Source of the DNA: Sorghum bicolor
Lineage: Eukaryota; Streptophyta; Magnoliopsida; Poales; Poaceae
Assembly (NCBI RefSeq): GCF_000003195.3
Contig: NC_012871.2
Location: 53,804,801 to 53,868,800, forward strand
Direction: 5' to 3'
Length of the DNA stretch: 64,000 bases
Positions 37,080-58,412 of this stretch are shown here, piece after piece; position 1 is the first letter of the stretch; each line of letters starts with the position of its first letter. Below the pieces are notes generated by a model that saw nothing but the letters and a program-made list of their open reading frames with translations, ran no database searches and was not told where the DNA came from. Position numbers and translations under genes: made by a program.

Positions 37080-38014
37080 TCAATTCTTTTTAGGTACCCA
37101 AACTTGATTGGGTCCTCCAAGGTTAGCAACTAAGCTCTTTGGTACCCATATGGCTTTCTTCTTTGAGCCCATCCATGGTGCACCAATGAACTTAGCATGA
37201 ACACCTTTTGTATCCTTGGTAAGCACATAGAAAGAATTAATCTTAATTGAGGATACATTAGCTTTGGGTTTCTTGTTCATGCATTGTTGCTCTAGGTGAC
37301 CAACTTGCTTGCAAGCTTTGCAATAACGGCCATTGTTCTTCACAAAACTAGTCTTGTGAGGAGCAAAGGCGGCCTTGCCTTTCTTGGGGTTATAGCCCAA
37401 TCCCTCTTTATAGAGAGAAGCTCTTTGGATACCCAAGCACATAAGCAAGCGGTCCTCACCACCATAAGCCTTGGCTAAGGTGTGATTGAGCTCTTTCACC
37501 TCCTTCTTGAGAATTTCATTCTCAACTTTTAGTGTGGTGTCACAAGTGAAACCATCACTACTAGATGAGGATGATGTAGATGTGCTACATGAAGGGTTAG
37601 TAGAAGCAATAACAATAGTCTTGCATAAGATATCACATGTTAGGCCTATGTTGCAAGTTTTAGCTTTTTCCATTTTAGTTGGCTCATTTTCGCATTTGTT
37701 GACTAGAGAGGAATGAGCTTCTTCAAGCTTAGTGTGAGCCCTTTGAAGCTTCTTATGGTCTTCCTTTAGACTCTCATAAGATGCTCTAAGCTCATCAAGT
37801 TCTTGCTCAAGGGTTTTCTTATCCTTAAGCAAGGCCTTGCACTCCTTTCTAGTTTCTTTATAGTGATGAGTGCAATCTTCTAGCATAGTGATTAGTTCAT
37901 CTTTAGTTGGTTCATCGTCATCACTATCACTATCACTATCATGTTCACTCTCATCATCGGATGATACCTTAGTGGCCTTAGCCATGAAGCATGATGGAGT
38001 GTCGAAGATGGAGC
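37080..38014 (-). pseudogene. Copia1 gag, C-terminal part
   Basis: This part follows the Gypsy2 insertion. It has an acidic stretch (SSDDESEHDSDSDSDDDEP), a long Lys/Glu coiled coil (about 37900-37680) and a second zinc knuckle, CKACKQVGHLEQQC. The N-terminal gag is at 50710-51814. Confidence 0.85.
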
Positions 38015-38019
38015 TCTTT

Positions 38020-41000
38020 TGTCGCACCCAGTTTTGGTAACAAAACCAAGTACTCAAATATGTGCGCCCAGGATGTCCAAACACACATATTATCACAAAT
38101 TGTAAATATATCAAAGTAAAGTACTTTATTACACCGCATATTCAACTTAAATATCTCACATAGTCTTGCTCATTGGCAACATTATTACATAAAGCGGAAA
38201 GCTAAGCCCTTGCTGCCACAGGGACACCAACTGGTGAACACCAGCTCTCTAGAAGTCCTGGACATCTTCAGGGAACTCCTCAGTACACACATATGTTACC
38301 CATCCGGGATTTTCATTGAAATATAAACAAGTGTAAGCGCACCATGCTTAGCAAGTATAACATAGGGGTATATGAAGGCTCAAAGGCTTGACTCGGTTTA
38401 ACAGCGGTTAGCATTTTAATTGGTCATATTTTATTTACTAAGACTTGCTACTTTTAATGAAAGACCAACCCGGTTACATAAGAATTAATCAAAGTTATTA
38501 TATTCCCCAAGTGTAACCAAGTAACCGCTAACCAAGAAGGATCCAGGCCGCTCATGACCGAGAGCTCGGCTGTTATAACAGGTTTTAGATTTCTGCAGAA
38601 ATTGTACAACTTTACCCCCGAACCGTGGTTCCCTAGTGTCGGGGTTTGCAAGGCCCACACCACTTCTTCCGAGGAAGTGTGACCGGGTCCCACTACGTAA
38701 CCTTTCACTAGTCACCCTAACAAAATAGTAGCCGCGAGGTTTCAGTGGCAAGTGTGCATAGACGACCTCCTTCAAGAGGCACATGTGGTCGCGGCACTGT
38801 ACACACCAAGGTAGGAGTGACATCTATACACCACGAGGCACCCCCCTCTAGCGCCTTTCGGTAACTACTAAATTGCTAGAGACATACTAGTTATATGATT
38901 AAGGTCAGAGCCATTTGACTCTCGGGATTGTACGTGTCCTCCTGGGTGGCCGCTTCAGGATTAAGTCCTTACGTAGAGGAATCTAGAGCTCCGAAACCCA
39001 AGCTCTAGCCCCCTGAACCAAGTTACTAGTACATATTTTATCATGTTGCATATACCAATTAATCAGATTAATTTATTACCTTGGGTTTTGAGCATAGCAA
39101 GCAAGTACCTAAACAAATGCACACCATCCCATGGGTAACAAGGATTTGTGGTGCAAAAATTATCTAGGTAAAGTCCTTATAGGTATTTCAATTTAGACAC
39201 ATGCATATGTATGATTTAATTAATATTCATAGGTACAAGGAAGCCTATATTACACTTGCCTTCCTCAAAAGTTTCTTCCTGGTAGAGCTCCACAAACTGC
39301 TCCTCAACCACTCCAACCTGATTTCCCTCTATTCGTGATCCAGACACCAATCAAGCATCCATTCCAATCATCACATGCATACAAATAGAGTTCTATTAGA
39401 ACAGTACACCAAACAGTGAAAACAGTGACTGAAAAGTATTTAAATCTACTCTACGCATTTCTACGAACACATGAGCGAAAGAATCACTCCAATCGGATTT
39501 AAAACGTGAAAGTTATGCATAAAACAAAATGAATGGCATTTCTGTGAATCAAAAACGAATTTAAAAGAATTAAAACTGATTTTCTAACGGGTCTGGACCG
39601 CGCGCACTATTATTTAAAAGTACAGGGTTCAAAATGATAGAAAACAGGATTAAAAAGAAATACTTTTGAACTGGATTGGACCGCGGGTTGATTTGCTTGT
39701 TAAACTGCAAAAACTCTAGCGGCCCGCGGCTGACCGCGTCGCTGACCGACCGGGGGCCACGTGGCGTGCGGGGATTGGCTCGGTCCACCACTGTGCGCGT
39801 GGACCGGCCGGCCGAGTGTCATGGACCGCACCCATGGGTCCACGGTGGACCGGTTACATAACCCCGAAGGGGTATGTAATCTGGGCCGTTGGGATCTAAT
39901 CGGACGGCTCAGAGAGGAGGGAGGCGGGGCGCTCGCCTGGCCGAGGCCGAGCACGGCGGCGCCATTGCCGCCGACGAGGTGAGCTCCTCGGAGCTCACCG
40001 GAAACTCGTTCCCGGCCACTCCAAACAAAAATAAGACTACCGAAATGATCTACGCGACGAGGCGAACTCGATAGAGCACAAAGAAGGGGCGGGGAGCACA
40101 TCAGGACGACGGCCCCGCGGTGGCGCCATTTTCGCGGCCTCGGCGAGCCTTGGGCTCGGTGGTCTAGCGCTCTAGCTCGAAATTGAAAGCACGGGGAGTA
40201 TCATAGGAGTATCGTGGTTCCGATGGAGATGCTCGCGGCGTCCGAAGGTGCTCCGAGCAGTGTGGCCACGAGTGCGGCGATCTGGGGAAGAAAATGGCGA
40301 CGGTGAGCTCAAATTCATGGCATACAAGGTCAAAACAAAGATGAAATCGGTGCCTACGGTCGCAGCGAGTCTCAACCAAGCTCCCGGGACGCTCTCCTGG
40401 CTCTGGGTTGCTCGAGCAAGGAGAAACCGAGGTGGGGGATCGAAACCGAGCTCCGGTGGTGGCTAGGGCAGCAAGGCGGGGCTCGGCCTGGGGTTTTATA
40501 GGGCGAGCAGGGGCATTGAGGGGGCGCGCATGCGGGCTTTAACTCCCGGCGTCAAGGCGGCTTGATGGAGCCCCGATTGATGGCCTCCATCAATCGGCGT
40601 TTGAAGAGGGGATGAATGCCCCTAGCTGTGTTCCCGGCTCGGTGGAGAAGAATGGGGAAGACGCTGACGTGCGGACCCCACGGTGCAGCGAGAGAGAGGG
40701 GAAGGGTGAGCGCCGACAGGCGGGACCCACCGCGCAGTGAGAGGGGGAGAGGGGGAGGGCGCACGGGCTGACCGCGCGGAGCGGGCCGCGCCACTGGGCC
40801 GCGCGCGCGCGTCGCCGGCGAGGGGCGGGGTGCTGGGCCGCGACGGCCCAAAGCCAGGGGTGGGCGCGGGGTTCAGGCCGGCCAGGGTTTGGGGCTGGGC
40901 CAGATTTGGTGAAAGAAATAAAATAAAAGAGAACTCTTTTATATTTTTCAGAACTATAAATACTTGTATAAATTCCTTTCAAGTTGATTTTTAAACCAAG

Positions 41001-41187
41001 AAATCTAGTCTTACAATCAATCAAAATATTATGCACCAGCTTGAATGCAGCATTTCATGTTTCTAGACCTTATGGTTTATTTTAAATAATTCCAAAAATT
41101 GTTATTTTGCCTAAACAATTCTCAGATAATTCATATAATTGTGCCAAATTGAATGCTAATTTGAAAATAAATTTTTAGGGTGTTACA
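38020..41187 (-). repeat. Gypsy2 3' LTR, 3168 bp
   Basis: It begins TGTCGCACCC and ends GGTGTTACA on the plus strand. It is nearly identical to 47524-50704; one visible indel is an 11-bp 'aaacagggggg' present only in the right copy (about 49204-49214). The TATA box in the minus sense is about 40494-40505 (CCTATAAAACC). The GC-rich 39680-40900 part yields many spurious overlapping ORFs. Confidence 0.92.
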
Positions 41188-41201
41188 AACCTACCCCCCC
41201 C
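41188..41201 (-). other. Gypsy2 polypurine tract
   Basis: On the minus strand it reads AAGGGGGGGGTAGGTT (about 41188-41204), immediately inside the 3' LTR. It primes plus-strand DNA synthesis in Gypsy elements. Confidence 0.85.
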
Positions 41202-44200
41202 TTAGGATGAATCTCGTCCTCGAGATTCGGATGGTTCAAAAAGATGAGGGTACTCAGATTTTAAGTCGTCCTCTCTTTCCCAGGTTGCTTCATCTTTTGA
41301 ATGCCTATTCCATTGTACTTTGCTCATTCTTATGACCTTGCTCCTGGTGATTCTTTCTGCTGTCTCCAAAATTCTTACAGGATATTCTTTATAGGAAAGG
41401 TCTTTTTGAACATCGAGCTCTTCCAGAGGTAACCGTTCTTCACGTACTCTCAGACATTTCTTAAGCTGTGACACATGGAAAACATTGTGAACACTAGAGA
41501 GTTGCTCAGGTAATTCCAGCTGATAGGCGACTTCTCCTCTCCTAGCAATGATCTTAAATGGTCCCACATACCTAGGAGACAACTTCCCCTTTGTATGAAA
41601 TCTCTTGACTCCTCTCATAGGTGAGACTTTGAGATACACATAATCTCCTATTTGAAATTCCAAATCCCTTCTCCTGGTATCTGCATAACTTTTCTGTCGT
41701 GACTGTGCTATTTTCAAGTTCTGTCTTACTGTGTGTACTTGTTTCTCTGCTTCTTGCAGGATTTCGGGCCCAAAAACTTGACTTTCCCCAGTTTGACTCC
41801 AAAATAGCGGTGTCCTGCACTTCCTGCCATATAATACCTCAAAAGGTGCCATTTTGAGGCTCTTCTGATAACTATTATTATAGGAGAACTCTGCATAAGG
41901 CAAACTTTTGTCCCAACTTGTCCCGTACTGCAGGGCACAAGCTCTCAACATATCTTCCAGTATCTGGTTTGTTCTTTCTGTCTGTCCATCTGTTTGAGGA
42001 TGGTAGGCCGAACTAAAATTCAATTTGGTATCCATGGACTCATGTAGTTTCTGCCAAAAGTGTGATGTAAACTGTGTCCCTCTATCAGAAACAATTTTCT
42101 TTGGCACCCCATGTAAACACACAATCCTTTCCATGTACAATTCTGCCAACTTTGCCCCGGAATAGGTAGTCTTGACAGGGATGAAGTGAGCTACCTTGGT
42201 CAATCGATCTACAATAACCCAAATAGAATCGTATCCTTTTTGTGTCCGAGGTAGTCCCACTATAAAGTCCATCCCAACTTCCTCCCACTTCCACTCAGGT
42301 ATTTTCATGGGTTGAAGTAATCCTGCTGGTCTCTGATGTTCTGCTTTTACTCTTTGGCATGTATCACATATAGCCACATATTCTGCCACATCTCTTTTCA
42401 AGCCATACCACCAATATCTTTCTTTTAAGTCGAGGTACATTTTGGTACTACCCGGGTGTATAGAATAAGCGGAGTCATGAGCTTCTCTCAAGATAGCCTC
42501 TCTAATAGACTTTATCTCGGGTACACAAATCCTCTTACCGAACCACACTGTTCCCTGGTCATCCATGTGGAATCCTAGTGCCTTACCAATCACTATCCGT
42601 TCCGCGATATCTTTAATTTTCTCATCTTCCAGTTGTTCTTTACGGATATCTCGTTCTAGTGTGGGTTCCACCTCCAATTCCATAGTGTTAGCCACTATAC
42701 TCAAGTTCAGATGTTCAAACTCTTCGCACAACTCCCTAGGTAATTGAGTCACATAAGCCATATTAACATAGCTTTTTCTACTCAGGGCATCTGCCACTAC
42801 ATTAGCTTTACCCGGGTGATAGTGTACTTCAAGGCCGTAGTCCTTAATCAGTTCCAACCATCTTCGTTGTCTTAAGTTCAAATCAGACTGGGTGAAGATA
42901 TATTTTAAACTCTTATGATCTGTATAAATCTCACATTTATGACCGATTAGATAGTGTCTCCATATTTTTAGAGCGTGCACCACGGCCGCTAACTCCAAAT
43001 CATGGGTCGGATAGTTCAACTCGTGTTTCCTTAACTGTCTAGAGGCATAGGCCACCACTCTGCCCTCTTGCATGAGTACACACCCAAGACCTTGCCGAGA
43101 GGCATCACAGTAGATAGAGAAACTCTTAGTGATGTTAGGTAAGATGAGTACGGGGGCAGAAGTCAGTCTCTTTTTCAACTCTTCAAAACTGGCCTGACAC
43201 TCTTTGGACCATATAAATTTGGCATTCTTTTCTAGTAGAGCGGTCATTGGTTTGGCTAGCTTTGAGAAACCCTCAATAAATCTTCTATAGTACCCGGCCA
43301 TTCCAAGGAAACTCCTAATTTCACTCACATCTTTGGGTGGTTTCCAGCTTAACACATCCTGGACCTTTTTCGGGTCCACTGCTACCCCTCCGTTAGAGAT
43401 GATGTGCCCAAGGAAAGATACCTCTTTTAACCAAAATTCACATTTACTAAGCTTAGCATAGAGTTGATGTTCTCTAAGCTTTTGCAGCACCAATCTCAAG
43501 TGTTTCTCATGTTCTATCTCATTCTTAGAGAAAACAAGTATGTCATCAATGAACACAACCACAAACTTGTCAAGGTATTCCATGAATACTTTGTTCATCA
43601 AATACATAAAGTAGGCAGGTGCATTTGTCAACCCAAAGGACATAACTGTAAACTCATATAGTCCGTATTGAGTCACAAAAGCAGTTTTTGGGATATCAGA
43701 TCGTCTTATCCTTAACTGATGATAACCAGACCGAAGGTCTATCTTAGAAAACACACAAGCTCCTTTCAACTGGTCAAACAGGTCATCAATTCTAGGGAGT
43801 GGATACTTGTTCTTAATTGTGACCTCATTAAGTGATCTGTAATCTATACACATTCTTTGTGTACCATCTTTCTTTTCTACGAATAACACTGGTGCTCCCC
43901 AAGGTGAGGAACTTGGTTGAACATAATCCTTATCTAGCAACTCTCTTAACTGCTTCTTAAGTTCTGCTAACTCATTCACACCCATTCTATATGGTCTTTT
44001 AGCTATGGGTGCAGTTCCAGGTAAAAGTTCAATTATAAACTCAATGTCACGGTCAGGTGGCATACCTGGCAGTTCCTCAGGGAATACGTCCCGATACTCA
44101 TTCACTATCCGTATGTCCTCTATTGATGTCCCCTTCAGTTGATTAATTGTGTAATATTGTTTAGCCGACATGCTAACCTCTACCTCAATTTGCTGGCCCG

Positions 44201-44210
44201 AAGGTGTCAT
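41202..44210 (-). CDS. Gypsy2 pol: RT, RNase H, integrase, chromodomain
   Basis: A 1002-residue open frame. Order: RT starts about residue 50 with [20 protein letters not shown], the conserved [11 protein letters not shown], and the catalytic [11 protein letters not shown] (about residue 222). RNase H follows ([47 protein letters not shown]). Integrase has the H2C2 finger ([16 protein letters not shown]) and the core ([37 protein letters not shown]) with D, D and E intact. The last 60 residues ([30 protein letters not shown]) form a chromodomain-like module, which in chromoviruses binds methylated histone H3 and guides integration. The frame upstream is separated by TAG at 44214-44216. Confidence 0.93.
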
Positions 44211-44213
44211 TAA

Positions 44214-45622
44214 CTAAACTGTTTTGCTATCACATTGTATAACTGCTTTCCTCTGTTTCAACCATTCCATACCCAAGATAACATCAATACCAGAAGTTTT
44301 CAAAACCACCGGGCTAACTGTAAACTCTACCCCCCTTAGGATGATGTTCACTAGAGGGCATCTAAGGGTAACTTGCATTTATGCTCCCGGTGAGCTAACT
44401 ATCATGGAGTTTTTCATGGCAATCATGGGTATATCATATTTCTTGACAAAAGGCTGAGCAATAAAGGAATGTGATGCACCGGAATCGAATAAAACTGTAG
44501 CGGGGCTTGAGTTCACTGGAAACATACCGAGCATCACGTCCGGTGCCTCCTGTGCCGCCTCGGCTGTCACATGATTTACTCTTCCTCTGATATTGTTCTG
44601 GGCCATCTTCTTGGGGCACCTATTGGAGTAGTGTCCCGGCTCATCACAGCTGTAACATTTGTTATCATTGTTGGCATTTGGTGCTTTTGGTGCACCATTC
44701 TTAGGTGGAGCATTGGGACCGTTTGTCTTTACAGGAGCATTATTAACTGGCGGCTGACGTAGGTTAGGAGCTCGGTACTGCTGCTGCTGCTGCTGTGCAC
44801 GTTGTGGCTGCGGATTACGATTGACCAGGCTTGACTGACCTTGATAGCGTTGCTGTGGATAAGCTTGCTGAGGATTGGTACGAGTACGCGTGTTGTTTCC
44901 TGTCTGTTGTCCCTGGAACTTCCTTTTTTTATCTTCCATCTGGCGGCGTTTGTTCTCAATCACCAAGGCCTTGTCCACCAAATACTGAAAGCTTGCAAAA
45001 GTGTGGGATAGCAGTTGGTATTGGAGCCCATCATTCAACCCTTCCATGAACAATTCCTACCTTTTTTCATCGTTCTCCACTTCTGTGGGAGCATATCGTG
45101 ACAATTGTATGAACTTGTCACGATATTCAGCAACAGACATACTTCCTTGCTTGAGGGAGAGAAATTCTTTCTTCTTCAGTTTCATCAGTCCGGCAGGGAC
45201 ATGATGAGAGCGGAAAGCATTAGGAATTCCATCCAGGTTATGGGGTCAGCATCTGCACGGCCAAAACGAAAAGAATCCCACCAATCAAGGGCAGCTCCTT
45301 GCAATTGCCCCGCTGCATACAACACTTTCTCTCTGTCATCGCACTGTGCAATCTCCAGTTGTCTTTCGATCGCACGAAGCCAGTCATCCGCTTCGAGAGG
45401 GTCGGTAGAGTGTTTGAAAACAGGTGGATGTCCCTTCAAGAATTCTCCTCTCTTGTCCCTAACATGAGGAGGTGCATTTCCATTTCCATTTCCATTGTTC
45501 TGCATGTTTTGGGCCAGCTGCTGCAACAGTTGTGTTTGCATCATCATCAGCTGCTCCATAGTAGGAGGTGGTGGTGGTGGTGGTGGCACGTCCTCACCCC
45601 TCCTGTTCCTCCTAGTGTTGGC
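44214..45622 (-). pseudogene. Gypsy2 gag and protease, interrupted
   Basis: The start is MANTRRNRRGEDVPPPP (about 45622), followed by a Gln-rich helix and the retrotransposon Gag domain (FLKGHPPVFKHSTDPLEADD; ALDWWDSFRFG). A one-base deletion near 45230 shifts the frame. A TAG at 45057-45059 sits before LFMEGLNDG. Then come a Gln/Pro/Asn-rich linker, a zinc knuckle (CYSCDEPGHYSNRC) and the protease motif (LFDSGASHSF, about 44490). TAA at 44379-44381 and TAG at 44214-44216 lie between protease and RT. The original gag-pol was evidently a single frame. Confidence 0.88.
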
Positions 45623-46372
45623 CATCTGTACCAGATACATAATATGAGTCTTATATGTCCAAGATACTTAATTTTCAAGAGATATAACATGCTGGAATTA
45701 TTACCATCTGATCAAGTATGGGATTACATATGTTGTGAGTACAATGTGGTATGCCTTCTGTATTTTTCTGCTGTCCTCACTAAAGCTACAGCGAAGTAAA
45801 ACAAGCATATCTTTCTTTCTGTTTAATATCTCACTGCGAAATTTAACTTTCTGGAAAGCTTGGAAATTTTCCTACAACTTTCATTCAGATCACTTCCTCA
45901 AATTCTGGCGTTTACATAGGTAAGAACAAGTGACAACTCTTACTGTTCTGAAATTTTCTGACTGCGCAGAGAGGTCAGCTTGTGGAAATTTTATCTCTCA
46001 AACGGTAACAGATATTGAGGTGATTCCAGTGCCAATAGAAATCTATTTTATTCCATAAATTTTTTGTATTTTTAGTCCATCCAGAACTCGAGATATACAA
46101 TTTTTAAGGCAGACTGCTCAGAGGGAAAAACATGGGTCGACAGCAAGATATAAGTAAAACCCAACTATTTATTCATATTATCCTTAGACCTTAGCCCTAT
46201 TCTAAATGACTGTGGACAGGCCCACAATCATTGAAATCATGACAAAAATCCAACTCATCCATTAAGCATTATTACAAGCATGCATCCACGAAGTAGGAAT
46301 TGTTCAATCAGTAGAAAATAAAAACACACTCTCGCATCTCTATGCGTGTTTATTACAAATGGGGAAAACCTC
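45623..46372 (-). other. Spacer between gag and the extra ORF of Gypsy2
   Basis: About 750 bp without a convincing ORF. On the coding strand it separates the accessory ORF (ending at 46373) from gag (starting about 45622). It may hold an intron, a re-initiation region or a packaging signal; none can be recognised from sequence alone. Confidence 0.5.
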
Positions 46373-47347
46373 CTATGGGTCAAGGTTGGTGCCGGTGTTG
46401 GGGTCCTCGTGGTTCCTTGGGGGTGACTCTGCGAGGATGAGTGGTACTTCTTCAACATGATTCCCCTGCTGTTGCTTTAACATGGAGTTCTCGACAGCCA
46501 ACTCAAGGTAGGCCTTCCTCAGGGCATCTAGCTCATCTGAGGCTCGATCCAAGTCGGTGTTGGTTTGAGCCAAGCATGCCAGGGTGGGTCGGATCCTGGG
46601 ATTCCCTGCTACAAGTGGTGTAGCGATGTTGCAGATTGTCTGACCACTACGCCGGCGGGGTAGATAGCGATCTTCTTCCCAGGCAATATCAGCAAAGTGG
46701 CGGTCGCGGTTCACCACCAAGGCCTGCCGGGCAGCGTCTCGGATAGCTGCTGCGCGGGTAGTCCTGGCGGTGATCGCACGGTGGATGTGGCACACCCGAC
46801 TTCCTTCTCGGATGTAAGCTTCAGTCTCCCAGAAGCCGATGTAGTCGGGGTGAGTCCAATGCTCGGTGCGGTACTGTACGGTACACCGGGTGTGGAAACG
46901 ACGTGCGAGAGTAAGAAGTTTCGGATGGTAGTAGGCGTCACCATGCAAGTCGAAATGGATCACCACTGTCCATCCCTTTGCTAGAAGCGCAGCATGGTGA
47001 TCTTGGCTATCTCCATCACCATCTCCATCATCACCACCACTGCCATGGTCGCTTGAGTCAGAGCTGTCAGAACTATCTCCATCATCTGGATCACCAGCTC
47101 CTTCTTGTTCATCTTGCTCCATGGGCTCCTCTTCGGTTTCCTCGTCCTCAACTGGTTCCTCTATCATGACTTCCTCCTCAGCATCCTCATCCATGGGTAC
47201 ATCCATGGTTTGTTCCTCTTATGGATCTTCCTCCATGTCCCTCAGCGCTTCAACCAGATGCGGGGGAACACGCTTGCCTAGAGTGAACCTTGTCCTCTTG
47301 TTGGGCATGATGACAAGTTTGCGAGCTGTCCACTTGGTACGGGCCAT
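46373..47347 (-). CDS. Gypsy2 accessory ORF with histone H3 tail-like N-terminus
   Basis: A 324-codon frame between the 5' LTR and gag, broken by one TAA (47219-47221, codon 43). The ATG at 47345-47347 gives MARTKWTARKLVIMPNKRTR. Next come a Glu/Asp-rich stretch (DEDAEEEVMIEEPVEDEETE), a Ser/Asp/Gly tract (DDGDSSDSSDSSDHGSGGDD), a central folded-looking part with aromatic and His residues (HTRCTVQYRTEHWTHPDYIG; RAITARTTRAAAIRDAARQA) and a C-terminal heptad-like helix (DRASDELDALRKAYLELAVE). The first residues after Met match the histone H3 tail at 8 of 9 positions. I cannot assign a named family. If the TAA is read as a stop, a shorter protein could start at the ATG at 47206, without the H3-like end. 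Position and length suggest an accessory protein of this chromovirus lineage. Confidence 0.65.
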
Positions 47348-47508
47348 CTATAAGAAAATGTATGAGGATTAGAACAAAATAATTTTCTCAATAGATATTA
47401 GGCAAGTTATAAGCAATAATTTTATAAGAAAATAATTAGTAAAATAAGTGCTCAAGACCCTAAAAACGTCCATTTCTAACTAGGCTGATCGTCCTACAGT
47501 CAGGCTAA

Positions 47509-47520
47509 GCTTTGATACCA
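47509..47520 (-). other. Gypsy2 primer binding site, initiator tRNA-Met type
   Basis: The minus strand reads TGGTATCAAAGC three bases from the end of the 5' LTR (47524), close to the TGGTATCAGAGC complement of plant initiator tRNA-Met. Confidence 0.88.
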
Positions 47521-47523
47521 ATT

Positions 47524-50500
47524 TGTCGCACCCAGTTTTGATAACAAAACCAAGTACTCAAATATGTGCGCCCAGGATGTCCAAACACACATATTATCAC
47601 AAATTGTAAATATATCAAAGTAAAGTACTTTATTACACCGCATATTCAACTTAAATATCTCACATAGTCTTGCTCATTGGCAACATTATTACATAAAGCG
47701 GAAAGCTAAGCCCTTGCTGCCACAGGGACACCAACTGGTGAACACCAGCTCTCTAGAAGTCCTGGACATCTTCAGGGAACTCCTCAGTACACACATATGT
47801 TACCCATCCGGGATTTTCATTGAAATATAAACAAGTGTAAGCGCACCATGCTTAGCAAGTATAACATAGGGGTATATGAAGGCTCAAAGGCTTGACTCGG
47901 TTTAACAGCGGTTAGCATTTTAATTGGTCATATTTTATTTACTAAGACTTGCTACTTTTAATGAAAGACCAACCCGGTTACATAAGAATTAATCAAAGTT
48001 ATTATATTCCCCAAGTGTAACCAAGTAACCGCTAACCAAGAAGGATCCAGGCCGCTCATGACCGAGAGCTCGACTGTTATAACAGGTTTTAGATTTCTGC
48101 AGAAATTGTACACCTTTACCCCCGAACCGTGGTTCCCTAGTGTCGGGGTTTGCAAGGCCCACACCACTTCTTCCGAGGAAGTGTGACCGGGTCCCACTAC
48201 GTAACCTTTCACTAGTCACCCTAACAAAATAGTAGCCGCGAGGTTTCAGTGGCAAGTGTGCATAGACGACCTCCTTCAAGAGGCACATGTGGTCGCGGCA
48301 CTGTACACACCAAGGTAGGAGTGACATCTATACACCACGAGGCACCCCCCTCTAGCGCCTTTCGGTAACTACTAAATTGCTAGAGACATACTAGTTATAT
48401 GATTAAGGTCAGAGCCATTTGACTCTCGGGATTGTACGTGTCCTCCTGGGTGGCCGCTTCAGGATTAAGTCCTTACAGAGAGGAATCTAGAGCTCCCAAA
48501 CCCAAGCTCTAGCCCCCTGAACCAAGTTACTAGTACATATTTTATCATGTTGCATATACCAATTAATCAGATTAATTTATTACCTTGGGTTTTGAGCATA
48601 GCAAGCAAGTACCTAAACAAATGCACACCATCCCATGGGTAACAAGGATTTGTGGTACAAAAATTATCTAGGTAAAGTCCTTATAGGTATTTCAATTTAG
48701 ACACATGCATATGTATGATTTAATTAATATTCATAGGTACAAGGAAGCCTATATTACACTTGCCTTCCTCAAAAGTTTCTTCCTGGTAGAGCTCCACAAA
48801 CTGCTCCTCAACCACTCCAACCTGATTTCCCTCTATTCGTGATCCAGACACCAATCAAGCATCCATTCCAATCATCACATGCATACAAATAGAGTTCTAT
48901 TAGAACAGTACACCAAACAGTGAAAACAGTGACTGAAAAGTATTTAAATCTACTCTACGCATTTCTACGAACACATGAGCGAAAGAATCACTCCAATCGA
49001 ATTTAAAACGTGAAAGTTATGCATAAAACAAAATGAATGGCATTTCCGTGAATCAAAAACGAATTTAAAAGAATTAAAACTGATTTTCTAACGGGTCTGG
49101 ACCGCGCGCACTATTATTTAAAAGTACAGGGTTCAAAATGATAGAAAACAGGATTAAAAAGAAATACTTTTCAACTGGATTGGACCGCGGGTTGATTTGC
49201 TTGAAACAGGGGGGTTAAACTGCAAAAACTCTAGCGGCCCGCGGCTGACCGCGTCGCTGACCGACCGGGGGCCACGTGGCGTGCGGGGATTGGCTCGGTC
49301 CACCACTGTGCGCGTGGACCGGCCGGCCGAGTGTCATGGACCGCGCCCATGGGTCCACGGTGGACCGGTTACATAACCCCGAAGGGGTATGTAATCTGGG
49401 CCGTTGGGATCTAATCGGACGGCTCAGAGAGGAGGGAGGCGGGGCGCTCGCCTGGCCGAGGCCGAGCACGGCGGCGCCATTGCCGCCGACGAGGTGAGCT
49501 CCTCGGAGCTCACCGGAAACTCGTTCCCGGCCACTCCAAACAAAAATAAGACTACCGAAATGATCTACGCGACGAGGCGAACTCGATAGAGCACAAAGAA
49601 GGGACGGGGAGCACATCGGGACGACGGCCCCGCGGTGGCGCCATTTCCGCGGCCTCGGCGAGCCTTGGGCTCGGTGGTCTAGCGCTCTAGCTCGAAATTG
49701 AAAGCACGGGGAGTATCGTAGGAGTACCGCGGTTCCGATGGAGATGCTCGCGGCGTCCGAAGGTGCTCCGAGCAGTGTGGCCACGAGCGCGGCGATCTGG
49801 GGAAGAAAATGGTGACGGTGAGCTCAAATTCATGGCATACAAGGTCAAAACAAAGATGAAATCGGTGCCTACGGTCGCGGCGAGTCTCAACCAAGCTCCC
49901 AGGACGCTCTCGGGGCTCTGGGTTGCTCGAGCAAGGAGAAACCGAGGTGGGGGATCGAAACCGAGCTCCGGTGGTGGCTAGGGCAGCAAGGGGGGGCTCG
50001 GCCTGGGGTTTTATAGGGCGAGCAGGGGCATTGAGGGGGCGCGCATGCGGGCGTTAACTCCCGGCGTCAAGGCGGCTTTATGGAGCCCCGATTGATGGCC
50101 TCCATCAATCGGCATTTGAAGAGGGGATGAATGCCCCTAGCTGTGTTCCCGGCTCGGTGGAGAAGAAGGGGGAAGACGCTGACGTGCGGACCCCACGGTG
50201 CAGCGAGAGAGAGGGGAAGGGTGAGCGCCGACAGGCGGGACCCACCGCGCCGTGAGAGGGGGAGAGGGGGAGGGCGCACGGGCTGACCGCGCGGAGAGGG
50301 CCGCGCCACTGGGCTGCGCACGCGCGCGTCGCGGGCGAGGGGCGGGGTGCTGGGCCGCGACGGCCCAAAGCCAGGGGTGGGCGCGGGGTTCAGGCCGGCC
50401 AGGGTTTGGGGCTGGGCCAGATTTGGTGAAAGAAATAAAATAAAAGAGAACTCTTTTATATTTTTCAGAACTATAAATACTTGTATAAATTCCTTTCAAG

Positions 50501-50704
50501 TTGATTTTTAAACCAAGAAATCTAGTCTTACAATCAATCAAAATATTATGCACCAGCATGAATGCAGCATTTCATGTTTCTAGACCTTATGGTTTATTTT
50601 AAATAATTCCAAAAATTGTTATTTTGGCTAAACAATTCTCAGATAATTCATATAATTGTGCCAAATTGAATGCTAATTTGAAAATAAATTTTTAGGGTGT
50701 TACA
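47524..50704 (-). repeat. Gypsy2 5' LTR, 3181 bp
   Basis: It is the partner of 38020-41187. The promoter TATA box (CCTATAAAACC, minus strand) is at about 50007-50017, so transcription should start about 30 bases further left and run towards the primer site at 47520. A long R-U5 of roughly 2.4 kb follows, typical of Tekay elements. Confidence 0.92.
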
Positions 50705-50709
50705 TCTTT

Positions 50710-51814
50710 CCTTGAATTGCAATGCTAGCATGCGCCTTCTTCTTGGTGCTCTCATCATCACTTGAGGAGTCATCACTATCCCAAGTTGCAACATGGGCAT
50801 CACCCTTCTTCTTGTTTGAGCCTTCCTTCTTTTCTTGCTTCTTCTTTTGCTTCTTTCTCTCCTTCTTGATAGCATCTTCATCATCACTATCATAAGGACA
50901 CTTGGCGATGAGATGATCCTTTCTATGGCATCTAAAGCACCTCATGGAATGGTCATTCTTCTTGGAGGAGCTTTTCTTCCTTCTTGCCCGATAGCCCTTC
51001 TTCCTCATAAACTTTCCAAATCTTTTGACAAGAAGAGCCATCTCCTCATCTTCATCACTATCACAAGAGCTTGCTTCTTCTTCACTTGATGATTCTTGCT
51101 TGGCTTTGCCCTTAGATGTGATGGCCTTGAACGCCACACTTTTCTTCTTCTCATCATCTTTCTTCTCACCATCCTTCTTCTTCTTCTTGATCAACTCATC
51201 CTTCTCATCATCTTCCCTATAAGCATCATCGGTCATCACCTCTTGGAACACTTGTTGGGGAGTTGATTCACAAAGTGTTGTCTTGACTAGCACGGTGATC
51301 AATGTGTCAAATCTCTTAGACAAGCTTCTCAAGAACTTCATAGAGAATTGACTATCTTTTACTTCTTCCCCAAGTGCCTTGAGTTCATTCACAATGACTT
51401 GCAACCGGTGAAACATCTCCGACACACTTTCATCTTCTTGCATCTTGAAGCTTGAGAACTTTTCTTGGAGGATGTATGCTTTGGCGGTCTTGGTTCCCTT
51501 GGTGCCCTCAAATGTTTCTTCTAATTTTGCCCATGCATCATGAGCAATCACAATGTTCTTGATTTGCTCAAAGGTCTTGTCATCAAGAGCTTCATGAAGA
51601 GCACTAATTGCAATGTCATTGCATTGAAGCTTCTTTTCTTCAACCAGTGTTGGTGCATTCTCATTTGCAACTCAAATTTTGTTTCGGTCACCTTCCAAAC
51701 TTCTCTATTGATTGACTTGAGATGGGCGGTCATCTTGACCTTCCAATAAGCGTAATTTGTGCCATCAAAGTAAGGTGCCTTCTTGGTGTTGTTGATATGC
51801 AAACTAAGAGCCAT
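50710..51814 (-). pseudogene. Copia1 gag, N-terminal part
   Basis: ATG at 51814 (MALSLHINNTKKAPYFDGTN) starts a UBN2-type Copia Gag with YAYWKVKMTAHLKSI. A frameshift near 51660 moves the frame; homology continues from about 51640 through AHDAWAKLEETFEGTKGTK and SVSEMFHRLQVIVNELKALG. A Lys-rich region and a first zinc knuckle, CFRCHRKDHLIAKC, follow. The frame ends at the Gypsy2 insertion (target duplication 50705-50709) and continues at 38014. Confidence 0.88.
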
Positions 51815-51871: not shown

Positions 51872-52615
51872 TGAAAGGTTCAAATGGCTAGAGGGGGGTG
51901 AATAGCCTATTTAAAATTTCTACAAACTTCAACTAGACAAGTGAGTTAGTAAAATAAAAGGCGAAGCTATTCTAGCAATAGCACAACTAAGCTATGCAAG
52001 CCACCTAAACAAGTCTAGCAAGAGGGCTAAACACTAAACCACAACAACTAGAGAAGGCTACACAACAACTCTATACTAACAAGAACTAAGCTACACAAGC
52101 TAAACTAACTAGGTAGGCAAGTAAGTAAAGAGAGGAGAGTGATTGTTATACCGTCGTTGTAGAGATGAGATATATCCAATCAATCACGTACACAATCACA
52201 AGAGAGACCTTGGCAAGAAATGACACAAGATTTTTTACCGAGGTTCACTTGCTTCCCGGCAAGCTACTCCTCGTTGTGGCGATGCACCCACTTGATGGAT
52301 CACGAGCTAATTGGCAATCCAAAGCCAAACCCTCAGCGGGTGCCGCACATCCACTCACAAGATGGGGATCCTCCAAGCCACGAGCAATCCACTAGAGTAG
52401 CCAATTGCGATCTCCCGCGGGGAAGGCTCAAGAACCCCTCACAAATCACTTGGTGAGGCTCGAAACAATCTCCAATCACGAGCTCAACACCACCGCTGCT
52501 CCAAGCCGTCTAGGGCGTCGGGAAACACCCAAGAGTAACAAGAAATCCGCAGCAAACTCAAGAATCAAGTGCCACTAAATGCAACTCTCAAAGCAATGCA
52601 CTTGAATCTCACTCA
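51872..52615 (-). repeat. Copia1 5' LTR, truncated to 744 bp
   Basis: It matches 29629-31574 (less the Harbinger insertion) and ends at the position equivalent to 31574. The remaining 1239 bp of the LTR, with the repeat clusters and TATA box, are absent. Still, the end is TG on the minus strand (TGAGTGAGATTC) and a perfect CCGGA duplication adjoins it. This copy therefore has no 5' promoter of its own. Confidence 0.9.
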
Positions 52616-53627
52616 CCGGATGAGACTCGAAATAATGGCGGAGCTTGCGTCGGGCTAAGACTACCGCGTAAAGCAGTTTTTGGATTTGGGGGTATCGGGT
52701 CTTTGTGTCGGACAGTACTTCACTGATGAAGTACACCGGTCTTTGGATCGGCAGGGCATGCCCTTCTTCCTTCCTTTCGACCACGATAGCTGCGCTGGCC
52801 ACTTGATCAGTGGCTGCGACATAGAGAAGAAGCGGTTCCCCCTCAGCGGGGGGTACCAGAACGGTAGGGTTGGTTAGCAGAGCCTTGAGCTTGTCAAGGG
52901 CTTCCTGGGCCTCGAGGGTCCAGGAAAAATGCTCGGATTTCCTAAGTAACCTATACAGAGGTAGCCCTTTTTCCCCGAGTCGAGAGATGAAACAACTTAG
53001 AGAGGCTAGGCATCCCATGACCCTCTGTACTCCCTTTAGGTTACGAATCGGGCCCATGTTTGCGATGGCCGAGACCTTTTCTGGGTTGGCCTCAATCCCT
53101 CGCTCAGACACAATAAATCCGAGGAGCATGCCTCGGGGGACCCCAAAAACGCATTTCTCGGGGTTAAGTCTGATCCCCTTTGCCCTGAGGCATCGGAAGG
53201 TTTCTTCCAGGTCGGCAACTAGGCCACTTGCCTTCCTGGATTTGACAACAATGTCATCTACGTAAGCCTCTACCGTTCTGCCTATGAGGTCCCCGAAGAC
53301 CTGGAGCATACATCATTGATATGTAGCCCCCGCGTTCTTAAGGCCAAAAGGCATGGTCACGTAGCAATATATTCCGAAAGGGGTAATGAAAGAAGTGGCG
53401 AGCTGGTCGGACTCTTTCATCTTGATTTGGTGGTAACCGGAATAAGCATCAAGGAAAGACAAAATTTCGCATCCTGCTGTGGAGTCAATTATTTGATCGA
53501 TACGAGGTAATGGAAAGGGGTTCTTAGGACATGCTTTATTTAAACTAGTATAGTCTACACACATCCTCCACTTCCCATTTTTCTTTTTGACTAGCACAGG
53601 GTTAGCTAACCACTCGGGATGGAATAC
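52616..53627 (-). pseudogene. Gypsy1 reverse transcriptase, main part
   Basis: From the CACTA junction the frame reads PEWLANPVLVKKKNGKWRMC, FPLPRIDQIIDS, FLDAYSGYHQIKM and MPFGLKNAGATYQ. After a TGA (53313-53315) it continues with the catalytic [13 protein letters not shown] and the thumb/connection region to [12 protein letters not shown] at the Copia1 junction. The RT start lies beyond the CACTA insertion (54966-55187). Confidence 0.9.
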
Positions 53628-54962
53628 CACTACCACAAAACTGAATACCCTTGAGGGTCAAAAACCCTCAAGGAAACCCCTAAGACCGCCAAGAAAATCA
53701 ATATTGGCGGCTAGCACTCAAGGAATGGCCGCCAAGGGTAGAGAGACAAGGAAATACTATTTCCTTGAGTGCCGGCCGCCACAAATCAATTCCTTGAGGG
53801 TTAAACCGTCAAGAAAATAAATCAGTCGTCAGATTTTCAACATCGTCAAGAAAATGTAACGACACCCAAGGATATAGGTTTTCTTGAGTGCCAATGACAC
53901 TCAAGAAAATGTAAAAACACCCAAGGATAGATGTTTTCTTGAGTGCCGATGACCCTCAAGGATATGCATGGAAAAAAAGAGAAACAATCTCATATTTGTT
54001 GTAGCTGAGATTCGAACTCATGACTTGATACTCCATGTGAAACTAACTTACCACTACACCACGAAGTCTTTTGTGACTAAGTGAATGTTTCTTTCTTTTT
54101 GTTTTCACTTTAGTGGATCTTGTAATGAATATTTGAGAACCTAAATGATTTCAAATGAAAAAAGTTTGAATTATAAAGTTTTATATCTCATCAAGTACTA
54201 TAACTTTGGTTTAGGCTGTATCTCTATCTGAGGTCATTTGAAAGATTCAAAAAATTTAAAGTTTAAAGTTCTAATAATTTAAAACATATTTTATGGACCT
54301 CAAATAATTTCAAATGAAAATTTCATCAACTAAGAAGTTGTATATCTCTTTGGGTTCTATAACTTTGATATAAACTTTGCCTCCATACGGTATTATGTTA
54401 CATTTTAGCTTTAAAATAAGCAGGCATCTCAAGCTAAGTGCTAGTATATGCATTCTCTAATGCATAACAACACAAAATTATAACTTTTATTGGATTAATT
54501 TACTAACAAAAATTATATATCATTTTCCAAACATGTCAATGGAGCATTTATGTCTATAAAATGCAATGTCTAATTAACAAGAATGCAATGAGTTCACTAT
54601 ATCGGTGGTTAAGAGAAATATGACTATAAACTGTTTTTTCTTGGCAGCTACAATAATTTACTTGAGGGTTTACACCCAAAGAAACTAGCACTTCCTTGGC
54701 GGTTTCTAGTTACACCCAAGGAAATGTGAATTACCTTTGGTGGTTTATAATAACACTCAAGAAAACATAGAATTACCTTGGCGGTTTCAACTAGCACTCA
54801 AGGAAATATAGATTTAACTTGGCGGTTTGGTTTAGCACTCAAGAATATGTATTTTCTTGGGGGTTTTATACAACCCTCAAGGTAATTGTATATCCTTGGG
54901 GGTTTAATTTCGCCCCTCAAGGAAATTGCTGGCCCTCAAGGATACTCAGTTTTCTGGTAGTG
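53628..54962. mobile_element. Non-autonomous CACTA element, 1335 bp
   Basis: Both ends begin CACTACCA(C/G)AAAACTGA and a 3-bp TAC duplication flanks them (53625-53627 and 54963-54965), as expected for CACTA transposons. Removing it and one TAC restores the Gypsy1 RT frame. Subterminal regions (53640-53960 and 54655-54950) are packed with CCCTCAAGGAAA-type words in both orientations. It has no transposase ORF. A tRNA-like segment lies at 53996-54066. Confidence 0.92.
53996..54066 (-). other. tRNA-like segment with A and B boxes
   Basis: On the minus strand TGGTGTAGTGG (54051-54061) resembles a polymerase III A box and GAGTTCGAATC (54009-54019) resembles a B box; spacing is tRNA-like. A T-arm-like stem (GAG...CTC) is visible. 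No complete acceptor stem is apparent, so I do not call a functional tRNA. It may be a tRNA relic or part of a SINE captured by the CACTA element. Confidence 0.6.
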
Positions 54963-54965
54963 TAC

Positions 54966-57900
54966 CTCCTTGATGAATCCGGCCGCCAGCAGCTTGTGGA
55001 TCTCCTCCGCGGTGGCCCGACGCTTCTCCTCGTCGAATCGGCGCAGGCGTTGCTTCACGGGTTTGGAGCCGGCTCGGATGTCCAAGGAGTGCTCGATGAC
55101 TTCCCTCGGTATACCAGGCATGTCCGAGGGACTCCATGCAAATATGTCGGCGTTTGCGCGGAGAAAGTCGACGAGCACCACTTCCTATTTGGGGTCGAGG
55201 CTGGAGCTGATCCTCAACGCCCTACCCTCAGAGGTCCCGGGGTCGAGGAAGACCAGCTTGGTCTCCTCCGCCGGCTCGAAGCTCCTGGCATGACGCTTGG
55301 GGTCGGGGACGTCCTGGTCGCAGTCGCCGAGGCCGGTGAGGATCGCCAGGGACTCAGCCAGAGCCTCGGCCTGCTCAATGCACTCAACGTCGCACTGGTA
55401 GGCGTGCTGGCTAGTCGTGCTGACGGTGATGATGCCCTTTGGCCCTGGCATCTTGAGCTTGAGGTAGGTATAGTTGGGGATGGCCATGAACTTGGCGTAG
55501 CATGGTCGTCCCAGAATTGCGTGGTAGGTCCCTGGGAACCCGACCACGTCGAAAGTGAGAACCTCCCGTCTGAAGTTGTCGGGGGTCCCAAAGCAGACGG
55601 GCAGATCGATCTGTCCGAGAGGGTGAGCACGATGTCCCGACACCACTCCGTGGAATGGCGCTGTGTCGTTCCTCAGCTCAGACTTACTGATCCCCATGAG
55701 GGCCAGAGTCTCGACGTAAAGGATGTTGAGGCCGCTGCCTCCGTCCATCAGCACCTTGGTGAGACGGGTCTCGGCGATGATGGGGTCGACGATCAAAGGA
55801 TAGCTTCCGGGATTGGGGATCCGATCCGGGTGATCCTGCCGGTCGAACGTGATTGCGCTCTCGGACCACTTGAGGTACGAGGGCGCGGCCGAGCTGACTG
55901 CGCAAACTTCTCGGAGTTCACGCTTCCTCTGACTCGCGGTGAGGCGAGCGGAACGTCCCCCAAAGATCAAGAGACATTTCTTGATTTTGGGGAAACCTTC
56001 CCCTTGAGGGTCGTCGTCCTTGGGGGGCTCTTCAACGCCCTCCTTGGAGATGAGGTCGGTGTAGTACCGACGTAGGACGGTGCACTCCTCAAGGGTGTGC
56101 TTGGTTGGTCCCCTGTGATAAGGGCATGGCTTCTTCAACATCTCGTCGAAGAGACCGGGGCCAGCAGGAGCCCGCTTGGGGTTCTTGCGATCTGCCGCGG
56201 CGACTAAGTTGTCGTCCGACTGACCCTGCTTCCCCTTGCGACCCTTCTTCTTCTTCTTGGGGTCGTGTGAGCCCGAGGCCTCGGTGGCCTCGGCCTTCTG
56301 TTTCCCGTTGGCAGCGCCGTCGGAGAAAATGGCACCAACTGCCTCCTCGCCTGAGGCGAAGTTGGTGGCGATATCAAGCAGTTGGCTAGTGCTCGTGGGG
56401 GTCTTGCGACCGAGCTCGTGTACCAGCTTCTTGCAGGTGGTACCAGAAATGAAGGCTCCGATGACGTCGGAGTCCGTGATGTTGGGGAGCTCGGTGCACT
56501 GCTTGGAGAATCGCCTGATGAAGTCTCGGAGGGACTCATCGGGCTTCTGCCTGCAACTCCTGAGGTCCCAGGAGTTCCCAGGGCGCACATATGTGCCCTG
56601 GAAGTTTCCGACGAAGATCTTGACCAGGTCGGCCCAGTCGTGGATCATGCGCTCAGGGAGGTGCTCGAGCCAGGCTCTGGCCGTATCGGCCAGGTGCAAT
56701 GGGAGGTTGCGGATGATGAGGAGGTCATCATCCGCTCCACCTAGCTGACACACTAGGCGGTAATCCGCCAGCCAGAGTTCAGGGTTGGTTTCCCCTGAGT
56801 ACTTGGTTAAGTTGGTGGGCTGTCGGAATCGCACCGGGAACTTGGCCCTGCGTATGGCCTCGCTGAAGACGCAGGGACCCGGAGGCTCTGGTGACGTGCT
56901 ACGGTCGTGGTCGGGGTCGTATCTTCCGCCTCGGTGCGGTCGATAGCGTCGAGACTCGGCCTCGTCCTTGTCACGCCGTCTGGCCTCGAGGGTGGCCCGG
57001 ACGTCCGCGTCAGCCCTGACACGTTCGTGGACTGATGGGGCCCTGTTGCCCCCTTGCGGGTTAGGGGGCAGCGGACCTTGCACCGTTGGTGCCTTGTTAG
57101 GAGGGGGTCGGGCCTCACGGCGCCTCCTGCCGTGGGATTGTGATGCAGAACTTTCTGCGTTCTGTACCACAGCCTGCTCCAGGAGTCCGCGTAGCCCCTG
57201 GCGCACTCTCCTTCCCTCAGGAGTTGACGGCTCGGGCATCGCCCTGAGGAGGAGCGCAGCGGCCATCACATTCTGGCTGGCCGTGCTAAAGACCGGGGCG
57301 TCTCCCCCTTGGTCCTCGACGATACGACGGTTGACGTCTCGGGCGCGGCGTCTAGCCTCACCCCCGTCTCCACGGTCGGACGAGTCTCGGACCAGGGCCT
57401 CACGGAGTTGGTGGAGGCGTGCGCGTTCTTCTTCGAGTCTGGCCTCCAGCTCATCGAGCTGCTTGAGGTCAGGGCGATGTCCCCCTACGGGGGCTGATGC
57501 TGCCCCGCGGGCTCCAGGATCGGTCCCCGGAGTCGGGTTAGGTGGTGGAGTGGCGTTCTCTTGCCTAGAGGGCCCTGTACCCCCTTGAGCGTTGTGGGGC
57601 GCTCCTTCGACCTCAAGGTTGAAGCACTCTCTTGACAGGTCATAGATCCCGTCGTCGGAGTCGGAATAGCCGAGGCAGTAGTTGTTGGCCTCCAAGAAGC
57701 GCATGAAGGTCTCCGGGTCGCCACACCCGGAAAAGTCAGCGGCCGCCCACTCGTCATCGCCTGAGGTAGGGTCCTCTAGGTATGACGAAACGGGTGGCGA
57801 AGCAAGGAGATCCAGGGTAGACCTGAGATGGTGCCCTGGGAGATCCGCGTACGCACTTAATGAAGTGCTCACGGAAGAGGCGTAACTGGCGGATGCGTTC

Positions 57901-58412
57901 CTGAGTCCAAAAGGGAGCTCAAGAGGCGCCGCTGTCTCTCCTCCATCCATAGGTGGAGGGGGACGGGATGTTGAGGCCCCTTTGTCCCCCTTCTTGGGAA
58001 CGGGCGGGAGTCGCGCCTTCCCTTTTAGTCGGGGTGGAACAGGGGGTCGTGATGATCCCCTGTTGGTCCGTGAAGCGGAACCTGACACTCCGGGGGCCCT
58101 TCCTCTAGCGTGTGTCGAGCCGCAGGAATGGGCGATCTGGTGAGGAATATGCAGGGGGAGGGTCGGACAGACCCTGGCCTCAGTGGTAGGGTCAGAGATC
58201 CTAGATCTCTGACGCCCCCGCCGGGCACCCCCCGCATGGTGTCCCGAGCGCCTCCCACGCACTGACTGTGGTGGGATCGGCTCGGCGCAAGACTCGACAT
58301 CACCACGTGGCGGGAGGAGGACCATGTCATAGCCGAAGCCGAGGGACATGAACTCTAAACTCCCGAACGTCATGATGGTGCCGCGGCGGAGTGGACGAAA
58401 TCCGTCTGCCAT
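54966..58412 (-). pseudogene. Gypsy1 gag-protease and RT start
   Basis: ATG at 58412 (MADGFRPLRRGTIMTFGSLE) opens 1075 codons. The N-terminal third is Pro/Arg/Gly-rich and low in complexity. The Gag domain is at about residues 560-700 (LADTARAWLEHLPERMIHDW; FVGNFQGTYVRPG; RQKPDESLRDFIRRFSKQC). A Lys/Gly-rich linker and CPYHRGPTKHTLEEC (knuckle-like) follow. The protease is near residue 890 (KVLMDGGSGLNILY). A TAG (55185-55187) interrupts the frame; the RT start follows with DMPGIPREVIEHSLDIR to FIKEV at the CACTA junction. A 418-aa plus-strand ORF over this region is its antisense shadow. Confidence 0.88.

Follow-up and report, generated by a model that had tools for sequence, protein, structure and literature searches.

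This study was concerned with a 64,000-nucleotide stretch of the Sorghum bicolor genome (contig NC_012871.2, positions 53,804,801 to 53,868,800 of the forward strand; "the window" below) and with one long terminal repeat (LTR) retrotransposon on its minus strand. Between the 5' LTR and gag this element carries a sense open reading frame (ORF) whose first residues resemble the N-terminal tail of histone H3. The minus-strand order is 5' LTR, accessory ORF, gag, protease, reverse transcriptase (RT), RNase H, integrase with a chromodomain-like end, and 3' LTR, and the ORF is the 5' accessory gene of a grass Ty3-type element. The parts of the element, in window coordinates, are as follows.

38020..50704, minus strand: whole LTR retrotransposon, from LTR alignment, flanked by a 5-bp target site duplication, TCTTT, at 38015-38019 and 50705-50709
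47524..50704, minus strand: 5' LTR, 98.5% identical to the 3' LTR (BLAST)
38020..41187, minus strand: 3' LTR, from LTR alignment
47219..47347, minus strand: N-terminal part of the accessory ORF, carrying the H3-like tail (47347-47315 for Met and the next ten residues) and ended by TAA
46373..47206, minus strand: remainder of the accessory frame, 277 residues counted from an internal ATG, with an acidic linker, a domain like a double-stranded RNA-binding domain (dsRBD) and a long helix, all predicted by comparison with relative P0003
45185..45640, minus strand: first piece of gag (Ty3_capsid, 19.5 bits, under the cut-off of 29.1)
44379..45053, minus strand: zinc knuckle and aspartic protease (Pfam)
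41202..44210, minus strand: RT, RNase H, integrase and chromodomain-like C-terminus (Pfam and PDB chain matches)

The H3-like start of the accessory ORF

The minus-strand ATG at 47347 opens MARTKWTARKLVIMPNKRTRFTLGKRVPPHLVEALRDMEEDP / MARTKWTARKLVIMPNKRTRF, and a TAA at 47221-47219 ends this frame in the window copy. Translation confirmed the H3-like start proposed in a preliminary description of the locus. The N-terminus MARTKWTARKL, set against MARTKQTARKS of H3, has a single mismatch after Met to H3 residues 1-9 (ARTKQTARK), W for Q5, and agrees at the other eight. The match does not extend to residue 10, which is not S; the window copy has L there and most sister copies have R. Immediately 5' of the ATG and in frame with it stands a TAG, in the window copy and in 34 of 35 sister loci, so that in an unspliced message no start further upstream is possible in that frame.

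The judgement that a chance match is unlikely was upheld. Among the 2,365 ATG starts on both strands of the window, one reaches eight of nine matches to H3 and the runner-up reaches four. Forty first-order Markov versions of the window, which contained 89,864 ATG starts, gave a maximum of five of nine, and a chance match was thus ruled out. The 43-codon piece that carries the tail is the N-terminus of a longer accessory frame, which is interrupted here by one stop and resumes past the TAA as the 277-residue ORF (47206-46373, minus strand).

Sister copies were sought in the sorghum genome with the 277-residue piece, and 140 of 745 first-look candidates were scored. By identity these fall into group A (49 rows, 57-100%) and group B (91 rows, 34-38%). 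Within group A, 37 of the 49 rows span the whole query at 87-100% identity. Forty group A loci were fetched, the window copy included, and a tail expression that presets T3, K4, A7 and K9 matched in 35 of them. In four of the other five the tail is still recognisable in the DNA, where the start codon or R2 is altered or a shift has occurred; the fifth has no sign of it. Changes such as R2H may reflect CpG decay. The preliminary description had named absence of the tail from other copies as a ground for its refutation, and had asked whether they lack the TAA break. It was not refuted, as the tail proved to be the rule, and an unbroken frame of 319-331 codons runs from the tail Met in 22 of the 40 loci, so intact copies exist. 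A lone oddity of one copy was ruled out, as the tail recurs in sister loci and in relatives. Window positions 47348-47365 are pyrimidine-rich with an AG abutting the tail ATG, a candidate 3' splice site; the AG immediately before the ATG is found in 34 of 35 group A loci and in the tails read from family C, described below.

In group B, the start MTRHLTCRKS (once with H for R) was found in all 40 loci fetched of the 91 rows. This tail is one residue shorter and lacks K4, with T-x-R-K-S retained. A narrower DNA expression used as a re-check gave 21 places only, 19 of which read MTRHLTC[RH]KS, while the broader expression gave the 40 of 40. The group B ORF lies upstream of gag, protease and RT at the one locus checked (L067 with L143).

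Retention in relatives and on a second body

Three protein searches, one of which scored the 8000 candidates sharing most words, yielded 120 relatives, many of them fragments. The named species are the grasses Miscanthus floridulus and Urochloa humidicola. Relatives that reach the start mostly have the tail, for example P0006 (MARTKCTPRKSTGGYIPP), P0097 (MARTKQTCRKSTCGFLPPR), P0078 from Urochloa (MARTKITPRKSTCRFLPPR), P0074 (MARTKMTPRKRMCGYLPPR), P0121 (MARTKLTARKCNDG) and P0016 from Miscanthus (MARTKLTARKRT); P0026 reaches the start with a different N-terminus and no tail. An M-x-x-T-K/R start, which demands T3 and K or R at residue 4, selected 49 relatives, all of which have K there. In these, A1 is present in 48, R2 in 33, T6 in 43, R8 in 41 and K9 in 48, and the residues replacing R at R2 and R8 are mostly H or C. 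This tally omits 71 of the 120, namely P0083 and P0109 with an internal tail, P0026 with another start, and others that are mostly fragments starting further in. P0083 (Miscanthus floridulus, 392 residues) is a model named disease resistance protein RGA3 that goes on into MARTKQTPRKRTIMMP and a portion of the accessory body; it is either an insertion in a nucleotide-binding leucine-rich repeat (NLR) gene or a misjoined NLR gene model.

Six full-length relatives were compared, with 30-61% identity to the first over the alignment. Of the ten gap-free columns that cover residues 1-10, Met included, eight do not vary, compared with 25 of 216 columns elsewhere, and A1, T3 and T6 are invariant in all six. 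When a profile of 33 relatives was compared with the PDB, H3 chains made up 54 of the 60 rows shown, matched at about positions 1-27 with weak E-values (best H3 0.017); the top two rows were ARR1, matched on the acidic linker. A longer version of the tail was found in a second family. These comparisons support the tail as a family feature conserved across diverged relatives.

The second family was found with the genome DNA pattern M-A-R-T-K-x-T-[ASPT]-R-K, which gave 51 matches, compared with one for the reversed control. By codon 5 and translation, 31 of the 51 belong to group A, 12 were taken as histone H3 genes (eight translated, four by pattern only) and eight belong to a further family, C. 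The locus L093 (C1:55813019) resembles an H3 gene, seems to contain introns and has an unusual tail, MARTKCTARKSTGGKAPRKQL, in which Q5 is C; it is an H3 variant or a pseudogene. Family C is likewise a gag-upstream accessory ORF in the same genome, with the order accessory ORF, gag, pol at the one locus examined (L119). Its subfamily C1 starts with MARTKQTARKSTGGRAPRGQLAPR (start also given as MARTKQTARKSTGGRAPRGQLA), which agrees with H3 1-21 at 19 of the 21 positions after Met. A search with the C1 protein, in which 116 of 3086 first-look candidates were scored, gave five matches at 92-100% identity and 111 at 42-45% (C2), all 116 of which align from residue 1. Copy numbers here and in groups A and B are lower bounds, since only part of the first-look candidates was scored. 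Eighteen of the 111 C2 tails were read, of which 17 begin MARTRLTARKSTGG and one MPRTRLTARKSTGG; two more C2 copies, L119 and L120, have K4. A broken copy, L110 (C3), begins MARTKLTARKSARG. Family C loci include L108 (C5:41284331), L095 (C1:76037663), L119 (C7:37772352) and L120 (C9:19758988), and the family C body ends in acidic stretches. In viral contigs, L108 gave no match, and A4 gave 108 stretches fitting a pattern, none of which was confirmed.

The family C body could not be linked to the others. With the first 26 residues cut, hhalign found the bodies of A, B, D, E and F to be mutual homologues (E 6e-9 to 2e-51), and did not detect the C body against any of them (probability 0.2 to 1.2%, with a family C input of three sequences, two of them 99% identical). 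BLASTP of L108 against P0006 showed significant similarity in the tail only (residues 1-35, E 2e-4). One body common to all tailed proteins was therefore not found.

Codons were compared between C1 and C2. Codons 1-18 of L108 (C1) and L119, an atypical C2 copy that kept K4, differ at a proportion of 0.04 of replacement sites (pN) and 0.61 of synonymous sites (pS). For the body of the same pair, pN is 0.55 in codons 19-31, 0.32 in codons 32-130 and 0.46 in codons 131-349. The tail compared with L128 (R4) gave pN 0.07 and pS 0.61, and with L110 pN 0.12 and pS 0.63; these are pairwise values from few families. The low pN of the tail relative to the body makes it the slowest part in replacement terms.

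Predicted fold, origin and possible role

The predicted model of P0003 has alpha-beta-beta-beta-alpha order and its closest structures are dsRBDs, which predicts a dsRBD-like fold within the accessory body. A lysine motif at the start of the last helix contacts RNA in dsRBDs; in P0003 the start of this helix reads, by eye, TRAAAIRDAARQAL, without KKxxK. Residues 40-120 of family C could, by eye, have the same alpha-beta-beta-beta-alpha order. In the window pieces, the 33 relatives and two family C proteins, Pfam found neither a domain at its cut-off in the accessory body nor, at E values up to 1, any histone family.

The tail was likely captured from a host H3 gene. Residues following RK argue for descent from H3: family C reads STGG-x-APR, and P0006 and P0097 have STGG or STCG. 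Capture of an exon from an intron-containing H3 gene was considered: the H3 similarity of family C stops near residue 22-24, where the H3 genes L094 and L118 show an apparent intron after KQLATK, and an AG stands before the ATG in group A and family C, but the DNA comparison gave this no clear backing. In a 42-nt DNA comparison, the intron-containing gene L118 was best in four of five sequences (L094 tied twice), and L106 and L117 in the fifth.

Within the tail, R8-K9 is kept in every tailed group at the family level. K4 is retained in A, C1, C3, D, E and the two C2 copies L119 and L120, and is lost in group B and most C2 copies read, the two families with most scored copies. A K9-directed role is for this reason the best-supported reading, and the pattern suggests a K9-centred mimic. 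The preliminary description is supported in part. Its central claim, that an accessory protein opens directly with a genuine H3-like tail, stands. It had further proposed that the protein could be modified at K4 or K9, recruit or occupy readers, or self-associate with the integrase chromodomain; the K4 half of this is weakened, since K4 is R in C2 and H in B and is not general in the wider group. K4 as a functional residue is not favoured.

The tail is present, is retained in diverged relatives and is constrained between C1 and C2, and to judge from these sequences the elements may use it to engage the plant gene-silencing machinery. The reading we prefer, at somewhat less than an even chance, is that selection has maintained a captured H3 tail as a K9-centred mimic of H3, one that engages H3K9 writers or readers. 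The tail of a host H3 gene would have been captured into the accessory ORF, and removal of Met would expose A1-R2-T3-K4-x-T6-x-R8-K9 as in H3. It would be carried on the acidic linker, after which the predicted fold places the dsRBD-like domain and a long helix of a kind that would suit self-association. Host H3K9 methyltransferases or H3 readers would bind the tail and perhaps methylate K9, and the accessory protein would divert such factors from the chromatin of the element, or dock on them. Two results weigh against this account. Group A alone says little on constraint, since its tails are near-identical between copies and the window LTR pair differs at 34 of 3093 sites in the MAFFT-aligned part, which at a substitution rate of 1.3e-8 equals about 0.4 My. 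In addition, compared with synonymous recoding, the DNA agreement with H3 genes reached P values of only 0.02 to 0.13, which bears on the capture step. A bolder version, which we consider unlikely, is a two-armed counter-silencing protein with a K9-centred H3-tail bait and a DRB-like dsRBD module, so that both halves of RNA-directed silencing are addressed. The tail, in which R8-K9 is kept at the family level and K4 and K14 are replaced or lost in the families with most scored copies, would bait H3K9 methyltransferases or readers, and the dsRBD module (A, B, D, E) may touch the small-RNA arm. On this view selection would act on the mimic itself, since the tail occurs on two or more bodies that show no detectable relation.

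Several other explanations were weighed. The basic H3 tail might be kept as a nuclear localization signal that uses histone importins and not as a chromatin mimic. Residues 1-26 are indeed basic in the six relatives (5 to 10 K/R), compared with a linker of 3-8% K/R and 32-44% D/E, and the accessible text of PMC11728184 gives grass 5' accessory proteins as predicted nuclear. However, the non-basic residues A1, T3 and T6 are also retained in the six relatives, with A1 in 48 and T6 in 43 of the 49. The import determinants of H3 lie around K14-K23, a region that A and B lack and that is altered in C, and we regard import as improbable. Also improbable, in our view, is a targeting tether, in which the integrase chromodomain of the same element, or heterochromatin readers, would recognise a modified tail that thereby directs integration. 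One element does encode both the tail and a chromodomain-like end, and PMC11728184, in its accessible text, speculates that accessory ORFs influence insertion preference. Nevertheless, the match of the integrase C-terminus to Pfam Chromo is weak (E 7.6e-4, 19.8 bits) and under the cut-off of 25.1; among PDB chains it matched 2m2l at E 2.8e-5 and the chromodomain chains 2dy8 and 1g6z at E 0.06 and 0.2. In an alignment with the Clr4 chromodomain, two of the customary three cage places appear to be aromatic (Y and W), with H at the third. Type II chromodomains, in contrast, lack part of the aromatic cage according to the accessible text of PMC6317226, a further point against the tether.

Two explanations dispense with selection on the tail or with capture. 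An H3 first-exon fragment captured once could persist via recent copying only, and the near-identical tails of group A and the few LTR differences are what it would predict. It is very unlikely in view of the difference between the C1 and C2 tails, where 61% of synonymous and 4-7% of replacement sites differ, and of the retention of the tail in relatives down to 30% overall identity. Convergent mimicry, in which the tail evolved more than once without capture from H3, would fit the two unrelated-looking bodies and a DNA similarity to H3 genes that is not clearly above the synonymous null. The 19 of 21 agreement of family C, together with STGG or STCG in P0006 and P0097, would be hard to obtain without ancestry, and convergence appears highly improbable.

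Related systems and surroundings of the element

The H3 similarity of these ORFs has probably been noticed before. Steinbauerova et al. reportedly described in 2011 extra ORFs of Poaceae chromoviruses, some of which are partially similar to a histone H3 gene; these are said to lie likewise at the 5' position in grass chromoviruses, and partial H3 similarity is present at the start of the ORF studied here. That work is said to have addressed similarity and origin. The K9-centred retention, the second body, the constraint and the mimicry come from the present analysis, and we believe that all but the mimicry, together with the pairing with a dsRBD-like domain, are new. Influenza NS1 reportedly bears a C-terminal H3-like tail with a known host partner (Marazzi and colleagues, 2012). 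It too is said to combine a short H3-like tail with an RNA-binding domain; the dsRBD here is predicted, and the accessory-ORF tail, known from sequence, is N-terminal as in H3. We know of no established function for the accessory ORFs of plant LTR retrotransposons, although the elements that carry them are abundant in cereal genomes. As a hypothesis, a conserved mimic of the H3 tail is concrete, peptide-sized and directly testable, and it asks which plant H3K9 writer or reader binds the tail. Should one bind, this would to our knowledge be the first demonstration that a protein of a retrotransposon imitates the very histone through whose modification the element is silenced.

The H3L gene of Pyrenophora tritici-repentis sits in a hAT element (PMC3538342, accessible text) and is likewise a captured H3-like coding sequence in a transposon. 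However, H3L is an H3-like protein with a globular domain in a fungal DNA transposon, and here the tail is fused to another body. Tekay 5' accessory ORF proteins of maize and sorghum show weak DRBM-like similarity (TM 0.35-0.37; PMC11728184, 2024, accessible text), as the P0003 model also matches dsRBDs. The main text of PMC11728184 does not contain the word "histone", and its accessible text mentions no H3-like N-terminus, which the present ORF has, and the word does not occur in the accessible text of the review PMC7264820. Among the best matches listed in a literature search of titles and abstracts, no description of an H3-tail mimic in a plant retrotransposon was recognised.

The element with the H3-like tail is probably nested in a Copia element. 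Window positions 50700-51551 hold a Copia-type gag (Pfam Retrotran_gag_2), and on the opposite side a zinc-knuckle ORF was seen by eye at 37080-38015. More retroelement pieces lie at 52575-58412 on the minus strand, with RT/RNase H at 52575-53309 and a 1075-residue ORF with Retrotrans_gag at 55185-58412.
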